41,852 bases of DNA from Acidimicrobiia bacterium (GTDB lineage Bacteria > Actinomycetota > Acidimicrobiia > Acidimicrobiales > AC-14), in NCBI GenBank assembly GCA_023265025.1, contig JAHFUP010000040.1, positions 1-41,852 of the forward strand. Reading direction: 5' to 3'. The translations under genes were made by a program, and so were the position numbers. Below are positions 14,051 to 39,619 of this stretch, piece by piece. The first letter of the stretch is position 1. Each line of letters begins with the position of its first letter. The notes beneath the pieces are model-generated. The model did not search any database, was not told the origin of the DNA, and saw only the letters and a program-made list of their open reading frames with translations.

Positions 14051-14095
14051 GAACGGGGGAAGCGAGCCGCCGGCGAGCGGGGCGGAGGAGCGTGG

Positions 14096-15367: not shown

Positions 15368-16246
15368 CTACGGAATGGGGTCGACCTCTGGCCACCGGAT
15401 CGCAAGTCCCAGCGCCTCCGCGTGACCTCGCAGGTCTCGCCGTTGGGGATCTCGCACGGCACGGTAGATCTTGAGGACGAGGTTCTCCGCCTCGCTGTCC
15501 GTGCGCTGCGAGAGCCGGTCCAAGCAGGCCACTCCGACCGTTCGGCGTTCGGCGTTGTTTGAAATCAGCTCGTCGAATCGAGCTGCGGCATCCGCAACGC
15601 CCTGCTGGACGAGCAAGACAGCAAGCTGTCGGCGCTTTGTCGAGCTGCTACTCGATGGATTTCGAGCGACTCCTACGATGTCCTCAACTCGCTGCGCCAG
15701 GAGCAGACGCTCGATCACATCTCCAGAGACGTTCTCGTCGCCTCCCCGCAGGCGGGCCGCGAGCCGGGCCAAGTCGGCTTCTGACAGGGCGCGGGCGCCG
15801 CGGCGACGGGCTTCCGTGACGGCGCGAACCGTTTCATCGGCAAGGAGGTCAAGGCCACGCGGCGGCGGCTCACCTGTTGCGAGCGCGCGCAGCAACCGTT
15901 CGACCGAACGGCGGTCCGTAAGGAAGGCGCTCTGGCGACGCCTCATCACCTCGAAGACGTCGTCCAACGACGAGTCGAGGAGGAGCAAGTACCACGTCTT
16001 GCCCTGGAACCAGAAGGAAGCCCACTCGGCGTAGAACCACGGACGCTTGATGTACTCGGGGGTCACGAGACAGGCGATCGCGTCGCATTCGCTGGCAGCG
16101 CGCCGGATTCGGTGCTCCCAGTCGTCTCCGGGAGCAACGTGAGTCGCCAGGAGGAGGCACTCGATCCCAGGGATCTCCTCGAGACGCAGACGCAATGCCT
16201 CCGCGACCTCCAGATCTGTGGCAGCGTGGCTGATGAACAAGCGCAC
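15368..16246 (-). CDS. TIR-domain protein, candidate defence effector
   Basis: The 292-residue protein opens with a TIR domain: MRLFISHAATDLEVAEAL, then THVAPGDDWEHRIRRAASEC, CLVTPEYIKRPWFYAEW. The Glu of WFYAEW is at the position of the catalytic Glu of TIR NADases. The C-terminal half (about 150-292) is helical with no named domain. The start is GTG. It is a stand-alone gene in an insertion that broke ardC, near a restriction system, which is typical of defence cargo. Bacterial TIR proteins often act by consuming NAD or making cyclic ADP-ribose signals, but a sensor partner is not visible here. The TIR call is strong; the defence role is inferred. Confidence 0.85.
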   Translation of the reverse strand: MRLFISHAATDLEVAEALRLRLEEIPGIECLLLATHVAPGDDWEHRIRRAASECDAIACLVTPEYIKRPWFYAEWASFWFQGKTWYLLLLDSSLDDVFEVMRRRQSAFLTDRRSVERLLRALATGEPPPRGLDLLADETVRAVTEARRRGARALSEADLARLAARLRGGDENVSGDVIERLLLAQRVEDIVGVARNPSSSSSTKRRQLAVLLVQQGVADAAARFDELISNNAERRTVGVACLDRLSQRTDSEAENLVLKIYRAVRDPQRRDLRGHAEALGLAIRWPEVDPIP

Positions 16247-16689: not shown

Positions 16690-17390
16690 GTGGTAACGAG
16701 TACGACGCAGCTCGCCCTACTACCCGCAGGGCATCTACGACGCCCTTGGTGCCTTGGACGGGCAGGTCGTGCTCGACGTTGGCGCTGGCAGTGGAATCGC
16801 GACGAGGCAACTCCTGTCACGAGGTGCGTCGGTGATCGCCGTCGACGCCGGACCCGCCATCTTGGCCGTTGCCGCACGGCGGACCCCGGGCCTTTGCTGC
16901 GTTTTCGCCGACGGCGCACTACTCCCGGTCCGAGACGGCGCCGTCGACCTGATCTGCTTCGCCCAGGCCTGGCACTGGCTCGCCGGGGCGACCAGGGTGA
17001 TCGAGGCCCACCGGGTACTCATCGAAGGGGGTCGCTGGGCGGCCTGGTGGTCCCACGCCCGGGAGGACGGCAAGGACTAGTTCGACGCCTACTGGTCGCT
17101 CCTCGAGCGCTGGTGCCCCGGCACCAACCGCGCCAGCGCGACACGGACTGGGGAGCCACGGTGTCGGGGACGGGCAGGTTCGAGGTGGCGGAGCCCATCG
17201 TCGTGCCGTGGGAACGCAAGATCTTCGTCGATCGGTGGACGACCGATCAGGCCACTCACAGCTACGTCGTCGGCGTCGCTGCGCCAGGGAGAGCGCGCCT
17301 GCTCCGAGGCCTTCGCGCCGTGCTCGATGAGCGCTCCTCCGACGGGAGAATGACCGTCCACGACGAGACCGTGCTCTGGATCGGGATAGG
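16690..17390 (+). pseudogene. Decayed class I SAM-dependent methyltransferase
   Basis: The middle part (16754-17080) reads QVVLDVGAGSGIATRQLL with SAM-binding motif I, followed by VIAVDAGPAILAVA and DLICFAQAWHWLAGA, typical of Methyltransf_11/25 proteins. The N-terminal EYDAARP-YYPQGIYDALG is split by one missing base near 16710-16725. A TAG at 17078-17080 stops the main frame. The C-terminal part (RFEVAEPIVVPWERKIFVDR, TDQATHSYVVG) continues in another frame to about 17390. At least three lesions make this a pseudogene, unless sequencing errors are concentrated here. Confidence 0.7.
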
Positions 17391-17439
17391 ACCTGACCCG
17401 CGGAAGCGAGCCGCCGGCGAGCGGGGCTGTAGGGCGTGG

Positions 17440-17700
17440 TCAGTTGCTCGGATCCCCGGCGGCGGCGTCGATGCCCAGGCCGGCCAGCACGGTGCGGGCG
17501 GTCGTGAGTACGCGCTCGGTGGTGGCCGTGATCAGGCCCACGTCGCCCCGGGACCACCGGGCCAGGTAGGGGAGGCTGTAGTCGGTGGTGGCCATGCCGG
17601 CGGCCTGGCAGACGACGTAGGCGACGCTCTCGGCTTCGACCTCGGCCACATGGGATGCGACCCCGTCGCCCTCCGGTGCGTGCAGGAGGACATAGGCCAA
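17440..17700 (-). pseudogene. C-terminal fragment of ArdC-type antirestriction protein, copy 2
   Basis: This repeats the ardC 3' end seen at 14096-14351 with a few changes (for example H for N in GVASHVAEVEAESVAY). The duplicated DNA spans about 17403-17697 against 14059-14351. It starts about 37 bases beyond the ardC stop and ends at the same codon region of the HxxxH motif. The fragment begins LAYVLLHAPEG. The N-terminal piece at 23924-24538 ends TLAHDL, so joining them restores TLAHDL-AYVLLH across the motif. It marks the left border of the 17.7-23.9 kb insertion. Confidence 0.8.
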
Positions 17701-23923: not shown

Positions 23924-24538
23924 CTACAGGTCGTGAGCCAGGGTCTTGGTGGCCTGGAGGTCGGCGACGTCGGCTCGGACCCGCACGGTGCGGGCGGCGA
24001 AGTCGGTGACGCCGTTGGCGCCCCGGCAGTAGCCCCGCTCGATGCTGTAGCCGGCGCCGACGACCTGGTCGGCCAGCCCGGACCACAGCCGGGCGGTGTC
24101 GTCGCCCACCAGCAGCCGTGGCCGTACGTCGGCCAGCGGGGGGCCGTCGGTCTGGGACTCGTCGAAGACGTAGGCCACCTTGAATCCGCGTAGGACCGAG
24201 GCGGGGGGTGCGTCGTCGTCGTTATTCTTCTTGTCGTTGTTGTCGGCCCCGTTGACTTCCTTGGCCCGGTGGACGCAGGGGGCCAGGATGGCGATACCCG
24301 ACTCGCCCCGACGGACGTGGCGACCGAGGGCCCGCCAGCGGCCGAAGCCCGCCACCCTGGTGGCATCGGGGCGCTGGGCGTGGATGAGGAAGATGTTGCG
24401 GGCGCTGTAGCGGTGGAACCGACTGGCGACGACGAGCATCGACTGCCAGTCGGTGCCGCTGATGAGGCCGAGGACCTCGGCTTCCAGGCGGCGGTGGAGC
24501 TGGCCGAGCTTGTCGGTCCTGGTGGTGGTAGGGGTCAT
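23924..24538 (-). pseudogene. ardC: N-terminal part of ArdC-type antirestriction protein, truncated by insertion
   Basis: ArdC proteins protect incoming single-stranded plasmid DNA from host restriction. The 204-residue remnant has the ArdC N-terminal domain (WQSMLVVASRFHRYSARNIF, FGRWRALGRHVRRGESGIAI), an Asn/Asp-rich linker, and the start of the metallopeptidase domain (YCRGANGVTDFAARTVRVRA). It ends KTLAHDL and a stop, just where HxxxH should continue. A strong AGGAGG precedes the ATG. The missing C-terminal end is found twice, at 17440 and 14096. It is ~95 bases downstream of the gene at 24633-25082. The truncated protein may still bind ssDNA. Confidence 0.85.
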
Positions 24539-24597
24539 TGGGAATTGCCTCCTCGTGTCGGGGCGACCCGTGGGTGTTTCGGGCGCACACGACGAAA

Positions 24598-24617
24598 GGG
24601 CCGGCCGGAGCCGACCC
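24598..24617 (-). terminator. GC-rich hairpin between the 149-residue gene and ardC
   Basis: GGGTCGGC and GCCGGCCC (minus strand) pair around TCCG and are followed by TTTC. The hairpin is almost identical to the one at 28767-28786. Confidence 0.6.
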
Positions 24618-24632
24618 CTTCCTCGCCGAGGA

Positions 24633-25082
24633 TCACGCCGTAGTGGCGACCGTCGTGGCGTCTTCGCCTCGCTGGCGCTGTTCGTAGCCCTTCACGACCC
24701 GGGCCAGGCTGGGGCTGAGCCTGGAGGACTGGCGAGTGCTCAGCGGTGGGATGCGCCGGTGGATGGCGTAGGTGGAGTCGTCGGTGAACACGGCCAGGCC
24801 GAAGGCGGCGATGCGGCGCAGGGTGCGGGCGATGGTGGAGTGGGCCCCGGTGCCGGCGCCCAGGCCGAGTGACCCGGCCAGCTCGGCCACGTCGAGGCGG
24901 TAGCCGTCGGGGTGGTGCTCCAGGGTGCCGGCGATGCGGCGGTAGGCCAGGACCGAGGCCGGGCCGAGAACCGGCGTCCAGGCCAGCTCGGTGTAGATGC
25001 TCTGGGGTGCGAAGCCGAGGCGGTCGATGACCGGGTCGGGCCAGGCGATGACGTGCAGGTGGGTGGGAAGGGTCCGTTCCAT
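24633..25082 (-). CDS. Hypothetical mobile-element protein, probable winged-helix type
   Basis: The 149-residue product starts at ATG with AGGAGG upstream. The central part (SVLAYRRIAGTLEHHPDGYR, LDVAELAGSLGLGAGTGAHS, TIARTLRRIAAFGLAVF) has the helix-turn-helix-wing rhythm seen in plasmid-type regulatory or replication-linked proteins. An aromatic N-terminal stretch names the pattern HLHVIAWPDPVIDRLGF. I do not recognise a named family. It lies between leader element copy 2 and a hairpin that separates it from ardC. Its place next to ardC suggests a role in plasmid or ICE maintenance. Confidence 0.65.
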   Translation of the reverse strand: MERTLPTHLHVIAWPDPVIDRLGFAPQSIYTELAWTPVLGPASVLAYRRIAGTLEHHPDGYRLDVAELAGSLGLGAGTGAHSTIARTLRRIAAFGLAVFTDDSTYAIHRRIPPLSTRQSSRLSPSLARVVKGYEQRQRGEDATTVATTA

Positions 25083-25094
25083 GGGGGCTGCCTC

Positions 25095-25460
25095 CTGGGG
25101 CCGCATGTCCCGCGAGCGCTTCTCGGGGATGCCCCCGATCCAGCGACCCCGGGGCCAACGTCAAGGCCGAAGAGCGCAGCGCCCGCAGCGAAGTCGAGGC
25201 GGGGGGTGCGGGGGCGCCAGCCCCCGGGGAGATGAGAACGCGCCCCGCAGGGGCGTCAGGCCTCGACTGCAGCGAGGGTGCGCAGCGTGCCTTGACGTAG
25301 TGACTGCGTCCCCCTGGTGTCGTCCGCCGATGACGGTGGCCCCGGGGTGGCTACGAGCAGGGCCTACCTCTCGCGCCCGCCGGCCCGTCAGGGCCGAATC
25401 GCGGGCGCAGCAAGCACAGCCCTGCGAGCTGGGAGACCCCGAAAGATCAACCTTGTGGAT
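25095..25460 (-). repeat. Structured leader element, family A copy 2
   Basis: The core spans 25160-25296 with outer GTCAAGGC/GCCTTGAC and inner AGTCGAGGC/GCCTCGACT. It has the hairpins GGGGGC-GCCA-GCCCCC and CGCCCC-GCA-GGGGCG. The distal part has CCG-ATGA-CGG and the strong stem GCGCCCGC/GCGGGCGC enclosing GGCCC-GTCA-GGGCC. A GCGAG/CTCG hairpin lies just before the ribosome binding site of the gene at 25082. Confidence 0.8.
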
Positions 25461-25541
25461 CGGGCTTGGGGCCGGCGGGGCCGGCGTGGGGCCGGCGGGC
25501 CGGCGGGGCTGACGGTGGCAGGGTCGGAGCGGAGGACGGCC

Positions 25542-25886
25542 TCAGGTGCGCGGACGCCGGACCGCCGGGCGCTCGGGCGTCGAGCCACCGGTCGTCGGCG
25601 CCGACGAATCGCGCCGGGCCGAGGTCTGGATCCGGGGACCGTAACGGCGGTCGGGGGTGCCGGATCTGGTTACGGGCGCAACTGGCGCCGTGTGCCGACT
25701 GCGCGCGTACGGGTTGAGGTGCGCCAGTTCGCCGGGAAGGATCCGGCAGCGTTCAAGGCAGGTCTCAAGATCCTCCCGGCGGATGCGGACCGGAAACCGC
25801 AGGGCCGGGAGCTGCCCGTCCCGGACCATCCGGTAGATCGTGTTCGGGTGGAAGTTGAGGTAGCGGGCCGCCGCCTCGACGTCCAT
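25542..25886 (-). CDS. Excisionase-like (MerR-fold, HTH_17) DNA-binding protein
   Basis: I start at ATG 25886 (MDVEAAARYLNFHPNTIYRM), preceded by GGAGTGG; upstream codons look non-coding. The winged-helix motif is followed by LPALRFPVRIRREDLETCLE and a basic, low-complexity tail to ~114 residues. It is a paralogue of the protein at 6778-7056. Such proteins direct excision by tyrosine recombinases or repress element genes. It is upstream of the leader/149-residue gene/ardC series, so it may serve the same integrated element. The tail is arginine/proline-rich and could be partly spurious. Confidence 0.72.
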   Translation of the reverse strand: MDVEAAARYLNFHPNTIYRMVRDGQLPALRFPVRIRREDLETCLERCRILPGELAHLNPYARSRHTAPVAPVTRSGTPDRRYGPRIQTSARRDSSAPTTGGSTPERPAVRRPRT

Positions 25887-25903
25887 CCACTCCCCCTCCC
25901 CCG

Positions 25904-26550
25904 TCACGGGCCCGGATCGTATCGAGAGCTCGGATGAGGGAGAGGCTGAACACGAACTCGCCCCCAGAACACCCCGGTGCGGGCGCTCCGCGACGACCAC
26001 CGGGCCACTTCTAGGAAGGGGGGGATTCGAGCCCGTTTCCAGACCGGCAGCCCGGCGGGCAGGTCGACCTCGGGGATCACGGCCAGGTCGTCGGGGGCCA
26101 GGTCCGGGCCGTAGAGCTTGAGGGGCCGGGCCGCGTCGGGGTGGGCGATGGCGGCATGGAGGACGGGGAGCGCCTGGTTCCAGTTGGCCACCGCAATTTG
26201 GTTACGGCCGCCGTCTTCGTCGTGGTGCCCGACGCCGAGGCGGACCCGGGGTAGGTGGGGTGGGTGATCGAGGGTGGGATGACGACGTCGCCCCGGCCGG
26301 TGTGGCCAGCCGGCAGTGGCGCCCAGGCCGCGCCTAGGCCAGCCCCGGGCTGGCGGCGACGGGGCCGGAGCTGGCGGTGTTCGACGCGGGGAGCCCCGTT
26401 TGGCCCTTGGCCCTCGACGAGCTGGCGCCGCTCACCGTCGTTGCCGATGAGGATTTCCCACCTGGCCTTGCTGCGGTGGGAACGTGCCTGCGGGGCTGGC
26501 GGTGGGCGTGGCGCCGCTGTACCGGTAGCACCTTTCGCCCGTTCGTCACT
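25904..26550 (-). pseudogene. Remnant of an unknown gene, several frame breaks
   Basis: Part of the minus strand (26191-25904) reads VANWNQALPVLHAAIAHPDA, then KLYGPDLAPDDLAVIPEVDL, which looks like real protein. In a different frame further upstream, ARWEILIGNDGERRQLVEGQ is also protein-like. No single frame joins them, so the gene is broken or heavily mis-sequenced. I recognise no family. Confidence 0.4.
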
Positions 26551-26607
26551 TGCGTGGGGGAGGCGGCCGCCCGGGGGGGAGGGCGACCGCCTCGTCGCCG
26601 GCCGGCG

Positions 26608-26988
26608 CTACACCGGCTCGCCGAAGTCGTCGTCGCCGGGGGCCGGCGTGGGCCGGGCAGCTACGGCGGACATGGCCGGCTTGGCCAGGAACTCGACGTG
26701 GTTGGCGATGACCTCGTGCTTGGAGTGGGTGGTGCCGTCCTCGGTCTGCCACTGGCGGTAGCTGAGGCGCCCGCTGACGCCGAGCTGGCGCCCCTTGCCC
26801 ACGTGCTCGCCGATGGCCTCGGCCTGGGCGCCGAAGGTGATCACGTCGACGAACACCGCCGGCTGGTCCTTGCCGTCGCGGGGCGGGGTGTTGACGGCCA
26901 GCCTGAAGCTGCACACCGGGGTGCCGCCGGCGGAGAAACGGAGCTCGGGCTCTGCGGTCGTGCGGCCGATGAGGGTGATGGTGTTCAT
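26608..26988 (-). CDS. ssb: Single-stranded DNA-binding protein
   Basis: The 126-residue protein is a single OB-fold SSB. It begins MNTITLIGRTTAEPELRFSA with the expected GTPVCSFRLAVNT strand and continues FVDVITFGAQAEAIGEHV, then GVSGRLSYRQWQTEDG. The C-terminus is short and acidic (PGDDDFGEPV) and lacks the usual DDDIPF ending, so partner binding may differ. It starts at ATG with AGGAGG. A plasmid-type SSB in this context fits conjugative transfer or plasmid replication, alongside ArdC. Upstream lies the family B leader element. Confidence 0.92.
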   Translation of the reverse strand: MNTITLIGRTTAEPELRFSAGGTPVCSFRLAVNTPPRDGKDQPAVFVDVITFGAQAEAIGEHVGKGRQLGVSGRLSYRQWQTEDGTTHSKHEVIANHVEFLAKPAMSAVAARPTPAPGDDDFGEPV

Positions 26989-27030
26989 GGTGTCCTCCTG
27001 GTGTCGGGTTGGGTTCCTGGCGATCGGCCC

Positions 27031-27133
27031 GGCACGGCATCGGGGGGGGAGGGCAAGGGTCTGCCGCAGGCCTGGGAGTAGCGCAGCGCAGCGGAGCCAC
27101 GGACCAGCCCTTGCGCTCGCCCCGAGCCGTGCC
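27031..27133 (-). repeat. Structured leader element, family B copy 1
   Basis: An outer stem pairs GGCACGGC with GCCGTGCC. Inside it GCAAGGG (27053-27059) pairs with CCCTTGC (27108-27114) around a shared internal motif with GCGCAGCG and GCGGAG. It lies upstream of the ssb ribosome binding site. The copy at 29985-30088 keeps the pairing with different bases. Confidence 0.65.
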
Positions 27134-27316
27134 AGCCTGGATCGGCACTGAACCCAGCCCCGGTTACCCCGAGGAGGGCGGCGTGGGCACCGCCCGAGCA
27201 ATCGTGGCCTGACAGAACGTCGAGGCTCACAGGTGGCGCTAGATCTCATGAGCGGGGGGCCAGCCCCCGCCGGTCGTGACCGGCAAGCGCGCCACAGCGA
27301 CCGGTGGTGATTCCCC

Positions 27317-27338
27317 GGGGCCAGCCGAAGCCGACCCC
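27317..27338 (-). terminator. GC-rich hairpin after the 81-residue gene
   Basis: GGGGTCGGC and GCTGGCCCC (minus strand) pair with wobble pairs around TTCG, 17 bases beyond the stop at 27355. It resembles the hairpins at 13407, 24598 and 28767. Confidence 0.45.
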
Positions 27339-27354
27339 GGAGCACCACGGGTGG

Positions 27355-27600
27355 TCAGAGCCCGAGCCCGAGATTGCCGACGTGGCGGTGCAGATCGCCA
27401 TGGTGGATCGCTGCTCGCTCCGACGGAAAGCCTCCGAGGTACTGAGCGACGTCGCCGGCGCCCCAGCAGCTGAGGCACTCGACGATCCATGCCGGAACGT
27501 CGTGGCGCGGGATGTCGGTGTCGGTGGGTGAGCCGAAGTGGATGTCGATGAGCGGAAGTGCTCGGCTGCGGAAATCGATTGAGCGTGCGCTGCGGGGCAT
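27355..27600 (-). CDS. Small hypothetical protein with Cys/His residues, under a structured leader
   Basis: The 81-residue product starts at ATG with AAGGAGG upstream. Its middle (DVPAWIVECLSCWGAGDVAQ, YLGGFPSERAAIHHGDLHRH) has a C-x2-C and several His that could bind zinc. I do not recognise the family. It is a single-gene unit with leader element copy 3 upstream and a GC-rich hairpin downstream. Confidence 0.65.
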   Translation of the reverse strand: MPRSARSIDFRSRALPLIDIHFGSPTDTDIPRHDVPAWIVECLSCWGAGDVAQYLGGFPSERAAIHHGDLHRHVGNLGLGL

Positions 27601-27609
27601 GTCTCCTCC

Positions 27610-27950
27610 TTGTTCGCGTTCGCCCTCTCTGGGCGTGTCCCCTCCCAGCGACCCCGGGGCCAGGGTCAAGGCCGAAGAGCGCAGCGCCCGCAGCGAAGTC
27701 GAGGCGGGGGGCTCGGGGGCGCCAGCCCCCGGGAGGACAAGACGCGCCCCGCAGGGGCGGCGGGCCTCGACTGCAGCGAGGGTGCGCAGCGTGCCTTGAC
27801 GCAGTGACCGCGTCTCCCTGGTGCGAACCACCGATGACGGTGGCCCCCGGGGTTGCTACGAGCAGGACCTTCCTCTCGCGTCCGCCGGCCCGTCAGGGCC
27901 GAATCGCGGGCGCAGCAAGCAACGACCCTGCGAGTTGGGACGAGCCAGAG
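27610..27950 (-). repeat. Structured leader element, family A copy 3
   Basis: The core spans 27665-27800 with the same outer (GTCAAGGC/GCCTTGAC) and inner (AGTCGAGGC/GCCTCGACT) stems as copies 2 and 4. It has the GCCA-loop and GCA-loop hairpins. Beyond the core are CCACCG-ATGA-CGGTGG and the GGCCC-GTCA-GGGCC stem. It precedes the ribosome binding site of the gene at 27600. Confidence 0.8.
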
Positions 27951-28217
27951 CCCGGGGTGAGGGGCGAGCGTAGCGAGCGAGGGGGAGGGCCGGGGAGGTC
28001 CCTTCCCCTGGTGGCCCGTGAGGGCCACATGCGGCCTCGCGGCGGGGGAGGTCAGAGAACCAGCACACGACCGAACCGGTGCCGCCGGCGACGACAAGGA
28101 ATGGGCCGGCATGGCGGCAATGGCCCTTCTTTCGGTCGTCGTGCGGTCGTGGTCCCATCTGCTTGAGCGCGACGGGCGGTCGGGGTGCCCGAGCTGGCGG
28201 CTCCTCGACTACCTGCC

Positions 28218-28720
28218 TCATTGGACCGACGCAGCTTGTGCGATGACGCCGAGGGCGATCCGGATGTTGCGGCCGGTGGCCAGCAGGCCGGCGTGGACCA
28301 GGCGGGCGATGGCGGGGTCGACGTGCAGCTCGGCCACGATCGGGTTGCTGAGGACGTCGGCGGCGTCGCGTGCGCCGAGCGCCGGCCTTGGTTCGATGAG
28401 CACGATCGCCCCCCGGTGGTGCCTGGGACGTCGAGAGACCGGCGAAGCGATAGAAGGTCGTTGCGCAGCACGACGTAGACGGCCGCGAAGTGGTCGCTGA
28501 AGCGGTCGGTCGTCGACGATGTCGGCGCGGTCCTCGGTGGGGTGGTTGGCCAGGGTCAGGCCGGGGCCGGCCTCGACGCTCTGTCCGGGGCGGGGACCGG
28601 ACCGGCGAGGATGGAGGCCAGGCGCTCGACGCCGGCGGGGCCGCTGGCGCTGAGCCGCACGGGCTGGCCGGTGCGGGCGACGGTCATGGCGCCCATGGCG
28701 GCGACGGTCGAGGTCCCCAC
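28218..28720 (-). pseudogene. Unknown gene broken by several frameshifts
   Basis: Pieces in different frames form one protein-like sequence. The N-terminal piece reads MGAMTVARTGQPVRLSASGP. The next is GPGLTLANHPTEDRADIVDD, then FAAVYVVLRNDLLSLRRSLD. The intact tail is IVLIEPRPALGARDAADVLS, HAGLLATGRNIRIALGVIAQ, ending at 28218. Two or three single-base changes would unite them into a ~165-residue protein. The family is not recognised. It lies downstream of the leader/59-residue unit, separated by a GC-rich hairpin. Confidence 0.55.
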
Positions 28721-28766
28721 GCCGCTGCTCGTTGACCCGACGGGTTGTCGGGGGCACGCGCCGAAA

Positions 28767-28786
28767 GGGCCGGCCGGAGCCGACCC
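28767..28786 (-). terminator. GC-rich hairpin after the 59-residue gene
   Basis: GGGTCGGC and GCCGGCCC (minus strand) pair around TCCG, followed by TTTC, 12 bases after the stop of the gene ending at 28799. It is almost identical to the hairpin at 24598-24617. Confidence 0.6.
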
Positions 28787-28798
28787 TGGCGCTGCGGA

Positions 28799-28978
28799 TC
28801 AGACCGCCGAGTGCGAACGGCGCCCGGCCCGCTCGACGTTGATCATCCGCACGACCCGGTCGAGGTTCAGCAGGGGGTCGAGGTCGGCCAGGCGGCTGCG
28901 CAGCGCCGGGGAGATGAGCTGGTCGATCGGGTGGGACCGGCGGGCGTGACTGTCAGGGCTGTTGGTGTCGATGCGCAT
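28799..28978 (-). CDS. Small hypothetical protein under a structured leader
   Basis: The 59-residue product (MRIDTNSPDSHARRSHPIDQ, LISPALRSRLADLDPLLNLD, RVVRMINVERAG) starts at ATG with AGGAGG 5-6 bases upstream. It is basic at both ends with a probable amphipathic helix in the middle. There is no signal peptide or cysteine. I do not recognise it. It is the clearest example of the leader-ORF-hairpin unit: copy 4 upstream and the hairpin at 28767-28786 downstream. Confidence 0.6.
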   Translation of the reverse strand: MRIDTNSPDSHARRSHPIDQLISPALRSRLADLDPLLNLDRVVRMINVERAGRRSHSAV

Positions 28979-28989
28979 GTCTGCCTCCT

Positions 28990-29347
28990 GTTGGCGAGTC
29001 CCGCCGAGCTCCTCTCGGGGGATGTCCCTCACCCAGCGACCCCGGGGCCAGGGTCAAGGCCGAAGAGCGCAGCGCCCGCAGCGAAGTCGAGGCGGGGGGC
29101 TCGGGGGCGCCAGCCCCCGGAGGAGGAGAACGCGCCCCGTAGGGGCGGCGGGCCTCGACTGCAGCGAGGGTGCGCAGCGTGCCTTGACGCAGTGACCGCG
29201 TCCCCCTGGTGCGAAACACCGATGACGGTGGCCCCGGGGTTGCTACGAGAGGACCTTCCTCTCGCGCCCGCCGGCCCGTCAGGGCCGAATCGCGGGCGCA
29301 AGCAAGCAACGGCCTGGGAGGTGAGAGACCCCCGAGAAAACCTTGTG
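28990..29347 (-). repeat. Structured leader element, family A copy 4
   Basis: The core spans 29053-29188. It keeps all stems of copies 2 and 3, but one hairpin loop reads GTA instead of GCA (CGCCCC-GTA-GGGGCG). The distal stem GCGCCCGC/GCGGGCGC with GGCCC-GTCA-GGGCC is present. The 5' boundary on the minus strand is near CCACAAGG/TTTTCTCGGG. A GAG/CTC hairpin precedes the ribosome binding site at 28978. Confidence 0.8.
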
Positions 29348-29422
29348 CCTGAGGAGGGGGGCCGGGGGAGGCCGGCGGCGGCCGCCCCCCGTGGGCCCGC
29401 CAGGGCCCACCCTCGACTGAGG

Positions 29423-29694
29423 TCAACCCGCGGCCTCGATGTCAACCTCCTCTTCGAGCAACACGGAGGGGGGTTTGCCGGGGCGGACGCCTCATCGCCG
29501 GCGACGGCCTCGGTGGGACGCCTCACAGTCGGGGGGCAGGGCTGGCCCGGGCTGTCGACGGCGTGGATGGCACAGCAGGGATGGACGGGTGCCTGATCGT
29601 GGCGCGCCAGGTGTCCTCGCCGCAGAAGCGGCACCGCCCGAGCGGCGGGGGCCGGGTTCGGCGCCCCGCCGCCCCGCCGCCGCCGATCGCTCAC
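29423..29694 (-). pseudogene. Probable small Cys/His protein, translationally coupled, frame-broken
   Basis: A GTG at 29694 overlaps the stop of the upstream 79-residue gene as GTGA. Protein-like pieces in different frames read CRFCGEDTWRATIRHPSI, HPCCAIHAVDSPGQPC and VRRPTEAVAGDEAS, then LLEEEVDIEAAG with a stop at 29423. Two one-base changes, one in a G6 run near 29470, would join them into a ~90-residue protein with C-x2-C and CC/H pairs that suggest zinc binding. It is broken or mis-sequenced; family unknown. Confidence 0.45.
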
Positions 29695-29930
29695 GGCTCG
29701 CTCGGACCGGTGCCGGCTGCCGGGTCGCAATCGGCGTTGGATGCGATGTCGAGGGCGTCGAGCAGGCCGACGATGAGCTGGCGCACGGCGCTGGTGGCCA
29801 GGGAGATGACGTGGGTGACGTGGGCGTTGGCCTCGACGAACATCATCACCTTGGCCTCGCCGGGCAGCGGCACGGTGTGGATGGTGGCCTCGGTCTCGAT
29901 GCCGGATGCCGGCGAGTGCTGATCGGCCAT
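29691..29930 (-). CDS. Small hypothetical protein under a family B leader
   Basis: The 79-residue product starts at ATG (MADQHSPASGIETEATIHTV) with AAAGGAG upstream. The middle reads GEAKVMMFVEANAHVTHVIS and LATSAVRQLIVGLLDALDIA, likely a strand-helix pattern, with an acidic tail. No known family is recognised. It is preceded by family B leader copy 2 and followed by a gene overlapping its stop. Confidence 0.6.
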   Translation of the reverse strand: MADQHSPASGIETEATIHTVPLPGEAKVMMFVEANAHVTHVISLATSAVRQLIVGLLDALDIASNADCDPAAGTGPSEP

Positions 29931-29984
29931 GAGTGGCTCCTTTCGACCCGGTCCCGGCGTGTCCGGGGCCGTCAGGTGGACCCA

Positions 29985-30088
29985 CCACGACGTGGGGCGC
30001 TGGCAAGGGTCTGCCCGCAGGGCGCCGAGGAAACGCAGCGCCAGCGGAGTCCCGGAGGCCCCTTGCCAGAAGGAGCCCCGGGTCGTGG
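29985..30088 (-). repeat. Structured leader element, family B copy 2
   Basis: CCACGAC pairs with GTCGTGG as the outer stem. TGGCAAGGG (30001-30009) pairs exactly with CCCTTGCCA (30060-30068). The interior shares CGCAGCG and AGCGGAG with copy 1. It precedes the ribosome binding site of the gene at 29930. Confidence 0.65.
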
Positions 30089-30090
30089 TA

Positions 30091-30112
30091 CTGCGGGGGA
30101 GGGCCCCCGCAG
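30091..30112. terminator. Strong hairpin next to family B copy 2
   Basis: CTGCGGGGG and CCCCCGCAG pair exactly around AGGG. It may end transcription entering from the right or belong to the leader. There is no T run. Confidence 0.4.
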
Positions 30113-30746
30113 GAACGACAGAAGAGTCCCCCATCGGTTCCGCCGGGGCGTTGGCCGTCAAGCCCCAACGGTTGTCGGCAACTGCGGGTTGAAGGACAGG
30201 GCGTGGCGGGCGAACGCGCTTGGTTCTCCTCCTTGTCGAAGGCCGGGCCGTCCTCGACGTCGCGATCGGTGGCCCACCCGGGTCGCCTCGACCACGTCGG
30301 CGCCGGCGGCGTCGTCGGGTTCCGCCTGGGCCTGCCCGTCGATGCTCGTCGTCGTGGTGGTGCTCGTGGTCGACCGCGTGGTGGTGTCGGTTGTCGGGTG
30401 TCGGCTTCGTGATCGGTGCCAGCCGAGCATCGCGAGGGCGGGGGTTCGGGCGCGTCAGCCCCGGTGCCGAGGTGGGCCGGGTAGGGGGGCGCAGCTCCGC
30501 AGAACTGACGGATGGTCAGACGAACCCAGCCCCCGTGTCGACGTCGTCCGGCGTTCGTCGCCCCCGACGTGTGCCGCCCTCCGTGCGTCGGCCGCGACGG
30601 ACGGCCAGGCGCCGGAGGGCGGCGGTCACAGTTCTCGGCCGACCGCGGCGCCACCTGTAGGCCATGGCGGTCGCGGTCGCGACCGGCACGCAGGTGTCGG
30701 CTCGCACGGGACGAAGTCGGCTGGTCCGGCGTCTGTGGTCGTTGCT
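30113..30746. other. About 630 bp without a supportable gene
   Basis: The minus strand has a Thr-rich open frame (30430-30158) and short protein-like patches in other frames, such as DVEDGPAFDKEENQ, but no frame carries a convincing start and domain. The stretch may hold a decayed gene and the ligase promoter. Confidence 0.4.
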
Positions 30747-31408
30747 ATGCATCCCCGCGGCTTCGAGCCCATGCTCGCCACCGCGAGGGGGCAGCTGGAC
30801 GGGGATGGGTGGGCCTATGACCTCAAGGTCGACGGGTGGCGGGCGATCGTGCACGTAGGGGCGTCGGGTCTGGCGGTCTTCAGCCGGCCGGGCCGCGACA
30901 TCGCCGGTCGCTCCCCGGCCTGCAGGCGCTCACCGAGGTCGTGCCGGTGGGTACCGTGCTCGACGGCGAGCTGGTGGCCGGCGACGGCCGGGCGTCGAGC
31001 TTCTATGGCCTGGCCACCCTGATGGCGACCAGGCCGCACCGCCGGCCTGGGAGGGTGAGCTTCGTGGCATTCGACGTGCTGGCGCTCGACGGGCGTCGGA
31101 CCACGGCCAGGCCGTACCGGGAGCGGCGCCAGCTGCTGGAGGGCCTTGGGTGCTTCGGGCCGGCGTGGTGCACCTCACGGTGCTGGACCGGGGTCGGCGT
31201 TGGCGATCTGCTGGCGGCGTGCGATGGCCTCGACATCGAGGGAATCGTGGCCAAGCGGCTGGACTCGCCGTACCGACCCGGGCAGCGGTCAAGTGACTGG
31301 GTCAAGATCAAGACGCCGGCGTGGCGGACCGAGCACGGGCCCTACCGCCACGAGCACGATCGAGGCGCCCGGGCGACGGGTGGCCAGACAGCGGGCTCTG
31401 TTGCATGA
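30747..31408 (+). CDS. ATP-dependent DNA ligase, adenylation domain (LigD/LigC type), one frameshift
   Basis: The nucleotidyltransferase motif KVDG (YDLKVDGWRAIVHV) holds the lysine that carries AMP. Later motifs follow: FSRPGRDI, TVLDGELVAGDG, FVAFDVLALDGR, DIEGIVAKRLDSPY and SDWVKIK. These match the ligase domain of LigD/LigC proteins. The frame breaks near 30912-30916 at SP-GLQALTEVV; one extra C in a C4 run restores it. The corrected protein is ~220 residues. It ends soon after motif V, so the OB-fold half is missing. It may be a truncated ligase gained by the element or a decayed copy. Confidence 0.8.
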
Positions 31409-31425
31409 AGCGCCAGAGCGAGAGC

Positions 31426-33516
31426 TCAGTTGGCGGGGGTGAAGCTGGTCTGGCAACGCGAGGTGCCGGCCACGGTCACGTCGATGATGACCCGGTAGCC
31501 CGGCGTGGCCGAGCTGATGCGGAAGGCGATGGTGGCGTAGCCGGAGCTGTCCGTCGCCGACTCGTTGGTCGTGTCGGTGGTCTTGTAGTGCGCCGTGGCC
31601 GATGCCGTGGCGCTCGGGTAGTCCGAGCTGATCCGCACCGTCACGGTGGCGTTGCGGGTCGGGGAGGTGTTGGACACCGTAGCGGTGCAGGGCGTGGCGA
31701 CGGCCACGGTCGGACGCGTCGTTGGCGTGACGGCGGTCGGCGGGGTCGTGGTCCTCGCCAGGGTTGTGGGCGTCGGCGGCGCGGCCGTCGTCGTGGCCTG
31801 GCAGTTCCGCCACAGGCCCAGGTTGGCGTCACGCGCCTCGGCCACGGCGACGCGGAACTCCTCGGCGTGGGCGACATTGGGCGGGACCGTCAGCTGCAGG
31901 GCGAAGCCGTTGCGGGCCAGGGCTCGGTTCACGAACAGGCCGTCTTCGAGCTTGTAGACATAGGCCAGCGTCCGCCCGAAGCCGTCGGTGCGAGTCACGT
32001 CGTAGATGAGGCGGACGCGGGTCCCCGGCGGGACGATCTCGTTGGCGTACCGGGTGGCCTCGGGGCCGAAGCACTGGACGGGTGTGCCGGGCTCGACGGT
32101 CTCGGGGGTGTCGACGCCGATGAGGCGGACCCGGATACCGCCAGTGACCTCGATGGTGTCGCCGTCGATGACGCGGACCACGCTGGTGTCGTCGCCGCCG
32201 GCAGGGACGCCTTCGGCGACCCCCCGCGTGATGACCGGGGTCGAGGGGGTCGGGACGACGGTGGTGGCGCCGGCGCCCTCACCGGCGGGCTCGGTCGATG
32301 GCGTTCTGGCGCCCGGGATTCGGCTTCCGGCGTCAACGGTCGTCGGCGGCTCGGTGCGGGCCAGCGCGCCGACGACGCCGAGCAGGAGGAAGGCCACGAC
32401 TGCGAACAGCGCCCCCCGTTGGGCGCGGCTGCGGGCCCCGAGCCAATCAGCGCCGGCGTCCCGGGCCCGGGCGAGGTCCGGCCACCGCGTCCGGCCGGCG
32501 GGGAAGGGACTGGCGGCGGGGCGCCTTGCGTGACGGGCGGGAGCCGCTTTGGGCCGTCTCGGCGACGTCAGTTGGGCCAGGTCGACCCTGGCCACCAACG
32601 CGGCGAGGTGCGGGCGGCTAGCGAGGTCGATCGGCTCCAGTCGGGCCGAGTGTGCTCCGGGGTTGGTCAGCAGGTCGTTTGAGGTGTCGACCACGATCCG
32701 GGACGCATCGGCGTCCGCCCACCGCACGCCCTCGAAGGCGGTGCGGGTCAGCTGGGCGGCGAGCAGGCTGTCGGTCGCCGGCCGGCCGTAGGCGTCGGGA
32801 CCCGCAGACCGCAGCACCACGGCGCGAACGGACCCGATGCCGGGGGCGGCGGCGAAGGTGTGGCGGACGGCGGCGAGGAGGTGGCCGCACACGAGCTCCC
32901 GGTAGTAGGCGGCGCGCTCGGCCGGCGTGAGGGTACGGAGGGTCAACCGGCCGGCGGCGGTCACCGGCGCCTTGGTGGGAATGGTGGCCGGATCAGGCAC
33001 GAGGACGGCGAGCGCGACCTCGTCGTTGCGTAGGGCGATGGCCACCGCCGGTATGTCGTTGTCTTCATAGGACTGGCGGAGGCTGTGCATGACGGCATCC
33101 GGCTCGTTGCCCAGCAGCTCGGCCCACGCCGCGTCGAGTCGACCCTGGGCCGCGTCCTGCGCGGCCGCCATGCCCAGCCGGGCGGCGGCGATCTCCCGCT
33201 CGGCCAGCGGAGTCGCGGACGCTTTGGCTGCGGCGCGTCGAACCCGATCGGTGCGGGGGATGCCGGCCAGGGCAGCCTTGCGGTGCTTGGCCCGGATGGC
33301 CCGCTCGTTGACCACCCCGATGACGGCGGTCGGCGCCAGGGCGGGCGGGACGTCTCGGCGGTGGAGATTGCAAATGCCGGTGAAGGCCTCATTCAGGCGA
33401 CGGGCATCAGCGGCGAGGGCGGCGTCGGCCCGCCGCAGCTCCCGGGCCTCGGCGGCCTGGGCCTTCCTGGTCGGGGTCAACCGGGCCTCGGCCCGCCTTC
33501 TTCTGTCCGTCGTCAA
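31426..33516 (-). CDS. Membrane-anchored thermonuclease (TNase/SNc) domain protein with a large cytoplasmic N-terminal region
   Basis: The N-terminal ~365 residues are Ala/Arg-rich and mostly helical (AEARELRRADAALAADARRL) with a more ordered part (AVAIALRNDEVALAVLVPDP). One membrane segment follows (GALFAVVAFLLLGVVGALA) and a Thr/Pro linker. At about 443-572 lies a staphylococcal-nuclease-type domain: VVRVIDGDTIEV, RVRLIGVDTPETVEPG, NRALARNGFA. After a Thr/Pro stretch a small beta domain closes the protein (ATVTVRISSDYPSATASATA). The nuclease would face outside. I prefer the TTG at 33516 because the residues before it look non-coding; an ATG at 33636 is possible. The substrate and the role of the cytoplasmic part are unknown. 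Confidence 0.82.
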   Translation of the reverse strand: MTTDRRRRAEARLTPTRKAQAAEARELRRADAALAADARRLNEAFTGICNLHRRDVPPALAPTAVIGVVNERAIRAKHRKAALAGIPRTDRVRRAAAKASATPLAEREIAAARLGMAAAQDAAQGRLDAAWAELLGNEPDAVMHSLRQSYEDNDIPAVAIALRNDEVALAVLVPDPATIPTKAPVTAAGRLTLRTLTPAERAAYYRELVCGHLLAAVRHTFAAAPGIGSVRAVVLRSAGPDAYGRPATDSLLAAQLTRTAFEGVRWADADASRIVVDTSNDLLTNPGAHSARLEPIDLASRPHLAALVARVDLAQLTSPRRPKAAPARHARRPAASPFPAGRTRWPDLARARDAGADWLGARSRAQRGALFAVVAFLLLGVVGALARTEPPTTVDAGSRIPGARTPSTEPAGEGAGATTVVPTPSTPVITRGVAEGVPAGGDDTSVVRVIDGDTIEVTGGIRVRLIGVDTPETVEPGTPVQCFGPEATRYANEIVPPGTRVRLIYDVTRTDGFGRTLAYVYKLEDGLFVNRALARNGFALQLTVPPNVAHAEEFRVAVAEARDANLGLWRNCQATTTAAPPTPTTLARTTTPPTAVTPTTRPTVAVATPCTATVSNTSPTRNATVTVRISSDYPSATASATAHYKTTDTTNESATDSSGYATIAFRISSATPGYRVIIDVTVAGTSRCQTSFTPAN

Positions 33517-33812
33517 CCTCGCTGCACCGCCTCCGTCCGCAGGGCCCCAGCTTGCCAGGAGATGGCATCCTCCCGAACACGGCCGCGGGCGAAGCGGATG
33601 GCCGACGCACCAGCGGTTTGGGCGCCGCGGCGGCACCGAGGCTGGGCGGTGATGCTCGGGCGGCGCAGCTCGTCACCGGCTGTGGAATCCGGCGCGGCCA
33701 CAACCGGCGTGGGCTCAACCTCCGACCCCGACCCCGCCGCCCGCCTCGAATCCGGCCGGGCTTGGCCAAGCCACCTCCCGCGCCGCTGGGGACAGCTAGC
33801 GGTTCGCCAGCA

Positions 33813-34247
33813 TCAGGCGGACACGATGATGGAAACGACGAAGTGATATTCCCCCACGAGGTCAATACACGGGCAGCGGTCGAGTACCTGACGTGGGACG
33901 CCTCCAATCTCGACCCGGCCCACACCCACCGCCCGATAGCGGTTGTTGCCTGGTTTCGTGGTCACAGGAACGACAACGCCCCCATAACCGTCTCGGTCGT
34001 TGAACACGGTCACGGACAGCTCCGGCCGACCTCCACCGACCGGTATGACGTCGATCTGGACGATGCGGCCCACCTTCACCTCAACTGTTGAATCGGTGTC
34101 GCCATCAAGACGGCCGGTGAACCGCGTGACGTTCGATGAACCGAAGCCGAATACATCCGCGGGGGAATCGGCCTGACCCGCTACGACCAAGCCAGCCAGG
34201 GTCAGGAGAAGCAGCATTCGACCACGGAACATCCGTCGCACGAACAT
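33813..34247 (-). CDS. Small secreted hypothetical protein
   Basis: The start MFVRRMFRGRMLLLLTLAGL, then VVAGQA, gives a signal peptide; ATGs at 34232 and 34217 are alternatives. The ~120-residue mature part is beta-rich (NVTRFTGRLDGDTDSTVEVK, VGRIVQIDVIPVGGGRPELS, AVGVGRVEIGGVPRQVLDRC) and has a CPC motif near the end. I do not recognise it. It lies upstream of and codirectional with the membrane nuclease gene, with ~300 bp between, and could be another surface protein of the same element. Confidence 0.6.
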   Translation of the reverse strand: MFVRRMFRGRMLLLLTLAGLVVAGQADSPADVFGFGSSNVTRFTGRLDGDTDSTVEVKVGRIVQIDVIPVGGGRPELSVTVFNDRDGYGGVVVPVTTKPGNNRYRAVGVGRVEIGGVPRQVLDRCPCIDLVGEYHFVVSIIVSA

Positions 34248-34428
34248 GAGTATCACCGGCAGAGAGCCCAGGGGCCACGAAAATTGACTGTTCGCGAGTG
34301 TTCCCCAATGACCAGGCGCCTGGACGGCTCGGGCAGACCGCTCGGCGCTGCCCGCGCCTGCGGCGACGGGCTCCGCACCCACTGAGCGCAGGTGTCGTCG
34401 GGTCGGAGGTCACCGGAGCGCGGCTCGA

Positions 34429-34812
34429 TCATCGCCCCCCTCCAGCGTCGGCGACGGCGTCCGCCTTCGTCCAGTACAGCGCGACACAGACGACGCCCTC
34501 GTCGTAGGTGACTCGGACGCACTGGAAGAACCCGTCGGGCTCGTCGGGCGGATTGTCCTTCGGGTCGTGCACGCGAAAGGCCTCGATGACCAGCGGCCAT
34601 TCGCCATACCGAGGGTCCGGGCGAAGTCCGAACTCCTCCACCAGCACCTCGATGAAGGAGTACCCGTCGACGAGCCCCGCCGGGCCGCGCCAGACACCGA
34701 GGGTGCGGCCCGGGTCGTGCAACCCCTGTTCGCCCGGCGGCGTGGCGGCAACAGGTGAGAGGCCGAAGCGATCGACGAGCCGCCGCACAAGGGGCGGGAC
34801 GAAGTCGGTCAT
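34429..34812 (-). CDS. Hypothetical protein, second gene of a two-gene unit
   Basis: The 127-residue product (MTDFVPPLVRRLVDRFGLSP, GYSFIEVLVEEFGLRPDPRY, FFQCVRVTYDEGVVCVALYW) is soluble and acidic with no signal peptide. It looks like a complete small alpha/beta domain, but I do not recognise the family. Its ATG overlaps the stop of the preceding gene (ATGA), so the two are translationally coupled and share leader element copy 5. Confidence 0.65.
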   Translation of the reverse strand: MTDFVPPLVRRLVDRFGLSPVAATPPGEQGLHDPGRTLGVWRGPAGLVDGYSFIEVLVEEFGLRPDPRYGEWPLVIEAFRVHDPKDNPPDEPDGFFQCVRVTYDEGVVCVALYWTKADAVADAGGGR

Positions 34813-34982
34813 CGCTCGCCGCCGGCGGCCGCGGCCTCGATCCCGGCGAGGGCGAGCACGAGGCAGTCGGCGTCGTGATCGACGAAGACCAGCAGCACCT
34901 CCACCGTCCCGCGGGGCCCGAGGCGGTCGATCGTCATCGGGCACTGACACTCCGTGGAGGTGGTCTTGAGGGGAAAGGTCAT
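34809..34982 (-). CDS. Small hypothetical protein, first gene after leader element copy 5
   Basis: The 57-residue product (MTFPLKTTSTECQCPMTIDR, LGPRGTVEVLLVFVDHDADC, LVLALAGIEAAAAGGER) starts at ATG with AAAGGAG 9 bases upstream. This context is nearly identical to that of the gene at 13674. A C-x-C pair near the start and a third Cys could bind metal. The family is not recognised. Its stop overlaps the next gene's start. Confidence 0.6.
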   Translation of the reverse strand: MTFPLKTTSTECQCPMTIDRLGPRGTVEVLLVFVDHDADCLVLALAGIEAAAAGGER

Positions 34983-34989
34983 GGCGACG

Positions 34990-35365
34990 CTCCTTTCGCT
35001 CCCCGAGTCGTTCTCGGGGGGCGTCCCGACCAGCGGGCCCGGAGCGAATGTCAAGGTCGGAGGCCGAAGGCCGGAGAGTGGAGCGCCCGCAGCGAAGGTG
35101 AGGCAGGGGGGACAGGGGGGCGCCAGCCCCCCGAGGACGAGGAGGCGGCCGCCGCAGGCGGCCACGGGCCTCGCCTGCAGCGAGGGTGCGCAGCGGCCTT
35201 GACATAGGACTGCGTCCCCCCAGCGCCGCCAACCGATGACGGTCGCACCGGGCCCGCTACAGCAGCGCTTCCTCGGGCGGACGCCGGGCCGTCAGGCCCG
35301 TTGCGGCCGCCATGAACCTCGGAGCGCTGCGCACTGGGAAGCCCCGAGAACTCCTCTGGTGGCTG
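34990..35365 (-). repeat. Structured leader element, family A copy 5
   Basis: The core spans 35050-35203 with outer GTCAAGG/CCTTGAC and inner GGTGAGGC/GCCTCGCC, and a G6 GCCA-loop hairpin. The GCA-loop hairpin has a different stem, GGCCGCC-GCA-GGCGGCC. The gene-proximal CCGAG/CTCGG hairpin and the distal GGGCC-GTCA-GGCCC stem are kept. It is closest to copy 1 and precedes the gene at 34982. Confidence 0.8.
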
Positions 35366-35605
35366 AGGCGGGGCGAGCGACGAGCGAGCGGGGGAGGCCG
35401 GCGCCGGCCTTCGCATGTCCCGCCAGGGGGCACGGTCTTGGTAGCGACTCGCCATTCCCCAACGAATCGACCAAGAGGGCGGGTGACGAGCTGCCCGGTC
35501 GATATGCGTGCGGCGCTCGCTACGGGCTTGGCTGCCAGAGTGAGGAAGTCGATGCGCGGAGTTGAGGGCTACGAGCTGGCAGTGACGACGCCCGGGGCGT
35601 GGCAG

Positions 35606-38502: not shown

Positions 38503-38551
38503 AGGGCCGACTATAGCGGCCGTCGGCGAAGTTCCCGGGGCCGCAGGACAA

Positions 38552-38585
38552 ACGACGACCGGGTGCCGCTGAGGAACGACGACCG
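38552..38585. repeat. Dispersed 25-bp repeat, partial tandem pair
   Basis: The unit begins GACGACCGGG, continues with a TSCCGC core and ends GAGGAAC. This copy is followed directly by the start of a second unit. It is one of four loci (15105, 38552, 39582, 41621). Confidence 0.6.
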
Positions 38586-38678: not shown

Positions 38679-39533
38679 TCACGGTTCGGTTTCGCAATCA
38701 GGAGGCGGGTCTCGTGGGGCAAGCATGGGACGGAGCAAGGTGAGGGGCTCGCGCTTGGCCGGGTCCCCGGCCAGGAGGTCGGCGAGCAAGGGCCCGCGAC
38801 CAGCCAGTGAATCCACGACCACGTCCAGCGTCCCGTGGAGGTCTGCGCTCGCCGGCGAGGCAACGGTGCGTAATTCGACATGGCCCGGCCGCACCACGGC
38901 GAAGAAGTGACGGTCGTTGCTGCCCAGAGCGACGGAGACGTCGAGGGGCTGGTTCTGCAGGAGGGCCACCATTGACGCGATGAACAAGGCATACGCGGCG
39001 ACGGCGGCGTCTTCGAGGTGCTTCGAAGGCGAGCCGCCCCCCGTCACCGCGACGACATCGCGTTCATGTAGCCAGCCGTCCCAGAGCACGTGCAAGCTCA
39101 GGACCGTCCATGGGATGGGCCCGTAGGGCCCGACCACGATGTCCTGGTCGCCACCGTCCATCCGCTCGAGTAAGGCCGGAGCCTCCTCGCCGCTCCACCG
39201 CCGCAGTTCGTCGAGCGTCTGCTCCGGCGGCTGACCCGCCGACCACGAGAGCCACTCGTCGGGCGTAGCCCGGCTATCGAAAGGCTTGTCGAAGGGCCAG
39301 TACGGATCGCGCCGGAGACCGCACACGTGTAGTCGGCACGCGTCACGGACGTGTCGGAGGACTTCATGGGCAGTCCACCGATCGCAGCGGCTGCGACCGG
39401 CCCAACTCTCGGGGCTGAGGCCCTCGGCCATCGCTAGTTGTCGGCGCCGCAGTAGGCCGAGGGCATCTGGCAGGTCGTCGAGTCCCGCGGTGATCCCCGC
39501 CGTTCGATCCACCGTGATCGCCGCCAAGGCCAC
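38679..39533 (-). CDS. Mycothiol-dependent maleylpyruvate isomerase-like (DinB-fold) protein
   Basis: The N-terminal four-helix domain carries the metal-ligand pattern of this family: WTAHEVLRHVRDACRLHV, and later HVLWDGWLHERDVVAV, where the first and second His and the HERD box would bind the metal. The C-terminal domain (HVELRTVASPASADLHGTLD, DVVVDSLAGRGPLLADLLAG) is the usual actinobacterial SCP2-like part. The start is GTG 39533. About 284 residues is the normal length. These proteins use mycothiol in isomerisation or transfer reactions; the substrate here is unknown. Copies of a 25-bp repeat lie on both sides. Confidence 0.82.
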   Translation of the reverse strand: MALAAITVDRTAGITAGLDDLPDALGLLRRRQLAMAEGLSPESWAGRSRCDRWTAHEVLRHVRDACRLHVCGLRRDPYWPFDKPFDSRATPDEWLSWSAGQPPEQTLDELRRWSGEEAPALLERMDGGDQDIVVGPYGPIPWTVLSLHVLWDGWLHERDVVAVTGGGSPSKHLEDAAVAAYALFIASMVALLQNQPLDVSVALGSNDRHFFAVVRPGHVELRTVASPASADLHGTLDVVVDSLAGRGPLLADLLAGDPAKREPLTLLRPMLAPRDPPPDCETEP

Positions 39534-39581
39534 GAGTTTCGCGCGCCAGCCTCGGTGCGCGCCACCGCATCCCGGAGCCCG

Positions 39582-39619
39582 CACGACGACTGGGTGCCGC
39601 AGGGGGAACGACGACCGGC
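39582..39619. repeat. Dispersed 25-bp repeat, second flank of the isomerase-like gene
   Basis: The unit reads GACGACTGGGTGCC, then GCAGGGGGAAC, followed by the start of a second unit (GACGACCGGC). It overlaps the extended open frame upstream of GTG 39533. Confidence 0.6.

Follow-up and report, generated by a model that had tools for sequence, protein, structure and literature searches.

What are the two short, structured elements that lie before the gene ssb, encoding a single-stranded-DNA-binding protein, and before a small gene of 79 residues in contig JAHFUP010000040.1 of an Acidimicrobiia bacterium, and on which strand do they act? The stretch analysed, referred to here as the window, is 41,852 nucleotides (nt) long and is contig C164 in a genome assembly of 5.45 Mb and 185 contigs. 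In the first-pass annotation the two elements were described as a shorter family of leaders (B) with the same design as a second family (A) in the window, and a structure in the messenger RNA (mRNA) was kept as the working idea until strand tests were made. These tests turned against it, as folding energy and loop type both speak for the complement of the mRNA, consensus folding being neutral. We put it at an even chance that B, and by its design also A, consists of DNA hairpin elements active at the stage when one strand of an apparent mobile element is single-stranded.

Element B1 occupies positions 27031-27134 of the plus strand, which is the structured strand and is complementary to ssb, and B2 occupies 29984-30090 of the plus strand. 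B1 has an outer stem (27031-27038/27126-27133, arms GGCACGGC/GCCGTGCC), an inner stem (27053-27059/27108-27114, GCAAGGG/CCCTTGC) and a plus-strand hairpin GCC-GCA-GGC at 27063-27071; in B2 the outer stem lies at 29985-29991/30082-30088 (CCACGAC/GTCGTGG), the inner stem at 30003-30009/30060-30066 and a plus-strand hairpin GCCC-GCA-GGGC at 30013-30023. The letters and pairings first annotated for the outer and inner stems were confirmed at these positions; the two-stem description was itself too small, the interior also holding a second hairpin and a branched stem. GC content alone, named beforehand as the explanation to exclude, does not account for the pairing, since both elements out-fold nearly all dinucleotide shuffles: on the gene strand z was -3.27 for B1 and -3.61 for B2, equalled by 1/200 and 0/200 shuffles, and on the other strand -3.40 and -4.15, equalled by 0/200 each. 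No Rfam family was matched anywhere in the window at gathering score.

It had also been held that a lack of further homologues would speak against the family; three more copies were found in the same genome, and the core at 32 places in 24 other genomes. Using blastn and a first model of B (R1, five rows, all from this genome), five copies were identified in the genome, B1, B2, L006, L003 and L002. Copy L006 (contig C128) stands before a homologue of the 79-residue open reading frame (ORF), and two outer-stem positions that are mismatched in B2 are paired in this paralogue. L003 (C117) carries an internal deletion and precedes an ssb that is frame-broken as read by eye; L002 (C137) has lost the ssb part, and 727 nt upstream of it is the end of a TrwC relaxase gene. 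In the alignment of the five copies 90.6% of cells are paired and 12 cells show two-sided changes, neither value being reached in 500 shuffles; the number of pair types was ordinary (120/500 shuffles). R1 recovered only the genome's own copies among 10 genomes of the family, and among 397 genomes of the order it returned these together with two weak matches, which pointed to a wider motif. A blastn search with window positions 25000-30200 gave two matches of about 55 nt in Streptomyces plasmids, within a methyltransferase gene, and no phage match, and the B pattern was not found in the viral contigs searched.

The inner-stem pattern TCAAGG-N35..65-CCTTGA was searched in 21 genomes, of which 19 matched; among the matches listed, most were unrelated by eye and included tRNA and coding sequence. 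Nine matches sharing the B interior were chosen by eye, and eight of them together with three B copies made up the 11 rows of a second model, R2; the shorter ninth (in genome G004) was excluded from training and was later matched by R2. The B core is a case of the motif TCAAGGG-nCGCTGCGRGGCTCCGCTGCGCTGCGCTTCTCGCT-hairpin-CCCTTGA. In B1 it spans 27053-27114, the sense strand of the model being the minus strand, and scores 40.9 bits (E 2.2e-07), B1 being one of the training rows. Within the class, R2 matched 36 places spread over 25 genomes, each holding 1-4 copies at threshold. GC content and the relatives of the genes point to an actinobacterial group. The order sample gave 29 places in 21 of 397 genomes, and the class sample, in which 13 of 395 genomes matched and 9 of these were already known, added 7 places in 4 new genomes. 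The phylum sample of 396 added no new genome (2 matched, both known), and because of this the core family appears to be confined to the class as far as the samples show. At E 0.01 R2 missed the copy L003.

The core structure covaries. In the R2 training alignment 94.4% of cells are paired and 14 are two-sided, with 0/500 shuffles reaching either; the count of two-sided pairs was matched by 7/500 shuffles and that of pair types by 56/500, the structure having been drawn from the same 11 rows. RNAalifold adds the branched stem to the core, two of its pairs showing four standard types each, and gives z values of -6.8 to -8.4 over both strands, with 0/200 column shuffles as low. The letters of the outer stem vary by element, yet an element's own flanks pair better than mismatched flanks (z -6.2; 28/30 copies, L057 and L069 being omitted because their flank was too short).

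When 30 cores with 32-nt flanks were folded and compared with shuffles, the strand complementary to the motif's sense strand was found to have an extra stability over the shuffle prediction of 1.95±0.36 kcal/mol with DNA and 3.0±0.79 kcal/mol with RNA parameters. The same strand carries 60 hairpins with a C(GNA)G loop and a stem of at least 2, distributed over 28/30 cores, against 10.7±3.1 in shuffles (maximum 19 of 300), and the other strand of the 30 cores carries none. Hairpins of the d(GCGAAGC) type are very stable. Neither the middle base of the loop, which can be C, A, G or T, nor the stem is constant. Of the C(GNNA)G loops in the cores, four have stems of at least 4, namely GTCA (two), GTTA and GGCA, and none of the four is of the RNA-favoured GNRA kind. 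Seven class-level cores, found after the loop rule had been formed, all carry C(GNA)G on the complementary strand, the other strand having none. On the template strand B1 and B2 each have one such hairpin, with stems of 3-4 bp, shorter than the 5-7 bp of those in phage N4. The reading as a leader is doubtful because the complementary strand is the more stable and alone carries C(GNA)G; the features fit folding of single-stranded DNA (ssDNA) better than folding of mRNA, and the elements may be switches or start sites at work during the single-stranded state of the mobile element.

Like the B elements, the A elements carry this hairpin design, and family A took no part in building R2. Five A copies lie in the window and one on C128. 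Those of the window are all on the plus strand and each stands before an ORF on the minus strand, at 13705-13962 (ORF 13447-13674), 25135-25434 (ORF 24633-25082), 27639-27935 (ORF 27355-27600, with a further C(GTGA)G hairpin at 28011-28028), 29027-29326 (ORF 28799-28978, with a further C(GCCA)G hairpin at 29391-29410) and 35017-35310 (ORF 34809-34982). Each window copy has three plus-strand hairpins with stems of 6-8 bp, such as CGCCCC-GCA-GGGGCG, CGGGGGC-GCCA-GCCCCCG and CGGCCC-GTCA-GGGCCG, and the C128 copy has one. Counting stems of at least 3 in the six copies, the template strand holds 8 GNA and 9 GNNA hairpins and the gene strand 2 and 0, against shuffle means of 1.7, 1.8, 1.0 and 0.9 (maxima 5, 5, 4 and 6 of 200); as the copies are mutually homologous, they do not count as independent cases. 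Of the 23 C(G..A)G hairpins with stems of at least 5 in the whole window, 15 fall in A elements. With stems of this length the loop kind makes up 6/8 three-base and 9/13 four-base loops in A and B together, compared with 3/80 and 3/94 in the rest of the window.

The first-pass annotation had suggested that the two families might be related. What stood is that B is a real second family whose design is shared with A, namely C(GNA)G and C(GNNA)G hairpins on the template strand and a stem of CAAGG/CCTTG. Homology did not stand, as R2 gave no significant match on the A copies (the best E values were 0.036 for the opposite and 0.16 for the same strand), and the GCGCAGCG likeness of A and B, taken alone, may be one of low-complexity sequence. 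A 20-mer of family A gave three matches in genome contigs, which were judged to be chance because the similarity ends within 20-28 nt, and none in viral contigs.

The genes behind the elements were considered next to those around the other cores. In the window, ssb (126 residues, 26608-26988, minus strand; PF00436, 1e-27) starts 64 nt downstream of the B1 core, and the 79-residue ORF after B2 (29691-29930, minus strand), whose homologue follows the C128 copy of B, matched no family in Pfam, PADLOC or NCBIfam. Both have a strong Shine-Dalgarno sequence (SD), all seven A and B places of the window sit upstream of an SD and a start codon, and 6/7 of the genes behind them matched no family in the same three collections; anti-defence proteins could be among these. 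The proposal that ssb is a target was strengthened, as an intact ssb starts 63-77 nt after the core at four places, in the window and at L068 (G008), L061 (G112) and L075 (G553), and remnants read as ssb come after L003 and L079. Genes with an ArdC N-domain follow L064 (G137) and L073 (G543), TrwC relaxase genes are near L065, L067, L052, L071 and L002 at 58-2561 nt, and a coupling-protein gene of a type IV secretion system (T4SS-DNA_transf) ends 38 nt before L031. A Prim-Pol gene precedes L049, RepSA adjoins L056, Rep_1 adjoins L055, and inovirus-type Zot-like and Rep genes adjoin L074 and L077. Genes of transfer and of replication are found in the neighbourhood of the cores.

Up to five of the nearest proteins at the 32 places outside the window's own genome (136 proteins) were compared with Pfam, and the matches included TrwC (4), integrase (4), SSB (3), TraI-type (3) and Rep_1 (2). 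None of these five was among the families listed for 108 control proteins from 18/20 arbitrary contig stretches (two yielded none), where all families with at least two members and only the best single ones are given and a lone weak match is possible; spurious ORFs of the simple gene caller occur in both protein sets. Three side observations concern these loci. An ssb gene in G074 (L083:5237-5575) lies 3.2 kb upstream of a motif copy, and no motif was reported before it at threshold. A staphylococcal nuclease gene (L080:7325-7891) comes after the L031 motif. A second long hairpin, GGATGCC...GGCATCC, is found downstream of the core in L052, L067, L071 and L047, standing before an SD in the first three, and its inner loop is by eye not of the GNA type.

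TrwC, coupling-protein, SSB and ArdC genes have the structured strand as their template in 12/12 classified cores, and Rep genes have it as their coding strand in 4/4 (Fisher 5e-4, from a hand-made table compiled after the hypothesis). Two of the four Rep cases share one genome, and the table omits the remnants L003 and L079 and the short ORF after L049, by eye an ArdC fragment. Rolling-circle plasmids and filamentous phages have the plus strand as their single-stranded form, and one rule would apparently cover both groups of genes: in each lifestyle, the structure is on whichever strand is single-stranded.

How such elements might work can be proposed from F, whose ssb, psiB, traM, traJ and traY are all on one strand; the position before ssb and ardC is Frpo-like, and the transferred strand is taken from F as the model. 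The strand complementary to the gene, which in an F-like arrangement of the element would be the one transferred, is predicted to fold into a stem with branches tipped by stable C(GNA)G mini-hairpins. Most likely, this folded template strand would be recognised by RNA polymerase or a primase as it enters, so that transcription of ssb, ardC and small establishment genes would precede synthesis of the second strand; the same transcript may prime that synthesis. We infer that in the cell the complementary strand occurs in single-stranded form, is bound by a polymerase or primase and drives expression. That the elements are ssDNA promoters and/or priming sites before establishment genes, working like Frpo or ssi, seems to us a proposition on which the chances are evenly balanced. 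More tentative, and somewhat less probable than its negation, is a class-wide ssDNA promoter or origin module built of N4-type C(GNA)G template-strand hairpins, which would be common to the conjugative elements, rolling-circle elements and filamentous phages of this GC-rich class and from which a cellular polymerase or primase would start expression and replication on incoming ssDNA.

Several observations weigh against the reading as elements that act in single-stranded form. In the cores, C(GNNA)G loops are about as frequent as in shuffles (11 and 10.5, with 1 on the gene strand), and an enrichment is seen in family A only. C(GNA)G is absent from 2/30 cores, L068, which lies before ssb, and L058. 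Only 26/127 short hairpins (stem of at least 3, loop of 3-4) are of this loop type, in 26/37 cores, the share being 8/34 in training cores and 18/93 in the others. R2 was trained on cores with such loops and its matches therefore lean towards them, and as the copies share ancestry, counts over copies are less than independent. Consensus folding does not distinguish the strands, and one of the consensus pairs reads G-U on the gene strand in 9/11 rows, so that the gene strand is favoured locally. The orientation table leaves 21/37 cores unclassified, several cores (e.g. L047, L054, L059) have no evident mobile-element gene in the flank read, and two, L070 and L060, come after IS110 genes. No relaxase was present among the 25 window ORFs compared with Pfam, and no sigma-70-like -35/-10 pair (0 sites) in window positions 24500-35500. 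The region upstream of F ssb has no clear GNA loop pattern. The T7/N4-type polymerase PF00940 was unmatched in the genome, where the control of the search was also unmatched and the result is uninformative.

Of the rivals that remain, a pure priming site ranks above an mRNA leader, and this above a dispersed repeat. Single-strand origins (sso/ssi) that prime second-strand synthesis without driving genes would explain why cores lie beside Rep_1, RepSA and inovirus-type genes, where the structured strand is the rep coding strand; however, five A and two B elements within one 22-kb stretch, each before its own small gene, exceed the need of one origin, and the spacing to the four intact ssb starts is nearly constant, so that we regard an origin function alone as rather unlikely. 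The stability of the complementary strand, the restriction of C(GNA)G loops in the cores to it, and the orientation of the copies near Rep and Zot-like genes, opposite to those genes, all speak against a structured 5' untranslated RNA controlling translation or termination of ssb and the small genes. Such a leader would fit the SD and start codon downstream at all seven window places, the conservation of structure on the gene strand as well and the G-U pair noted above, and yet it is in our judgement unlikely, more so than the origin. A palindromic or terminator-like repeat of the repetitive extragenic palindrome or miniature inverted-repeat transposable element kind, between genes by chance, would suit L070 and L060 behind IS110 transposase genes and the copies 38-133 nt past stop codons, but is improbable given 1-4 copies per genome, the recurrent neighbours ssb, ArdC, TrwC and Rep in fixed orientation, and a terminator-like scan of window positions 24500-35500 that gave one site, outside the elements.

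Other features of the window can be noted apart from the elements. A type I restriction system lies at 52-6808 on the minus strand (SWI2/SNF2 and T1R domains, a weak specificity-subunit match and an N6 methylase), a TIR-domain gene at 15368-16246, and, between A and B units at 31426-33480, a gene named SNc+LTD by PADLOC, whose large protein has a domain like that of staphylococcal nuclease. Long direct repeats are found at 7327-7592 and 11274-11539 (97% identical) and at 14045-14344 and 17389-17688 (94% identical), and short repeat units around AACGACGACCGGGTCCCGCAG at 38534-38569, 39570-39618 and 41628-41706, two of these units forming a tandem close to the end of the contig. The plus strand outside A and B also has C(GTA)G hairpins, their stems being 5-6 bp long, at 412-426, 39117-39131 and 39260-39272.

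Early expression from entering ssDNA is already known in F. In the literature searched, which included few subscription papers, no such element was found for this bacterial group. If the elements are ssDNA promoters or priming sites, the family would be a test case for the way in which elements in GC-rich bacteria guard their DNA as it enters; it yields concrete candidate sites before ssb and ardC and a strand prediction that can be tested, and R2 or the C(GNA)G strand rule provides a search handle for other establishment genes.

Among known systems three invite comparison. The sso of rolling-circle elements and the complementary-strand origins of filamentous phages are hairpins formed on a single-stranded plus strand; like them, copies of the present family lie beside rolling-circle and filamentous-phage genes, and unlike them, copies are also found beside relaxase genes and before ssb and ardC. 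As a positive control, the C(GNA)G scan was applied to the first 16 kb of phage N4 with stems of at least 5. Its three hairpins, at 90-102, 557-573 and 4546-4562 (stems 5, 7 and 7), are all template-strand ones just before gp1, gp2 and RNAP1 and fit the three early promoters of N4. The elements described here share with the promoters of the N4 virion RNA polymerase a template-strand C(GNA)G hairpin close before a gene, whereas N4 has single hairpins with 5-7 bp stems and its own polymerase, and here they are branches of a larger stem. According to PMC4496689, the N4 early promoters require the template-strand hairpin together with SSB, which acts as an activator.

Masai and Arai (1997) is reportedly the reference for Frpo and ssi as single-stranded promoters of F and ColIb-P9. 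In PMC9849209, Frpo1 and Frpo2 of F are 92% identical copies that stand before leading genes including ssbF and are required for their early expression; transcription of the leading genes from the transferred strand is proposed in PMC11541004. In F it is the entering strand that is folded. Like Frpo and ssi, the present elements are repeated structured copies before ssb and other establishment genes. They differ from Frpo in their GNA-loop branches and GC-rich hosts and, Frpo rebuilding -35/-10 boxes, in that no such boxes were found here in window positions 24500-35500. The F ssb upstream region, compared with B1, B2 and three A copies, gave a best E of 0.76 over 26 nt, no similarity beyond chance. 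By the similarity and -35/-10 tests the B elements are thus not members of Frpo; it is in their design that they resemble both Frpo and the N4 promoters.

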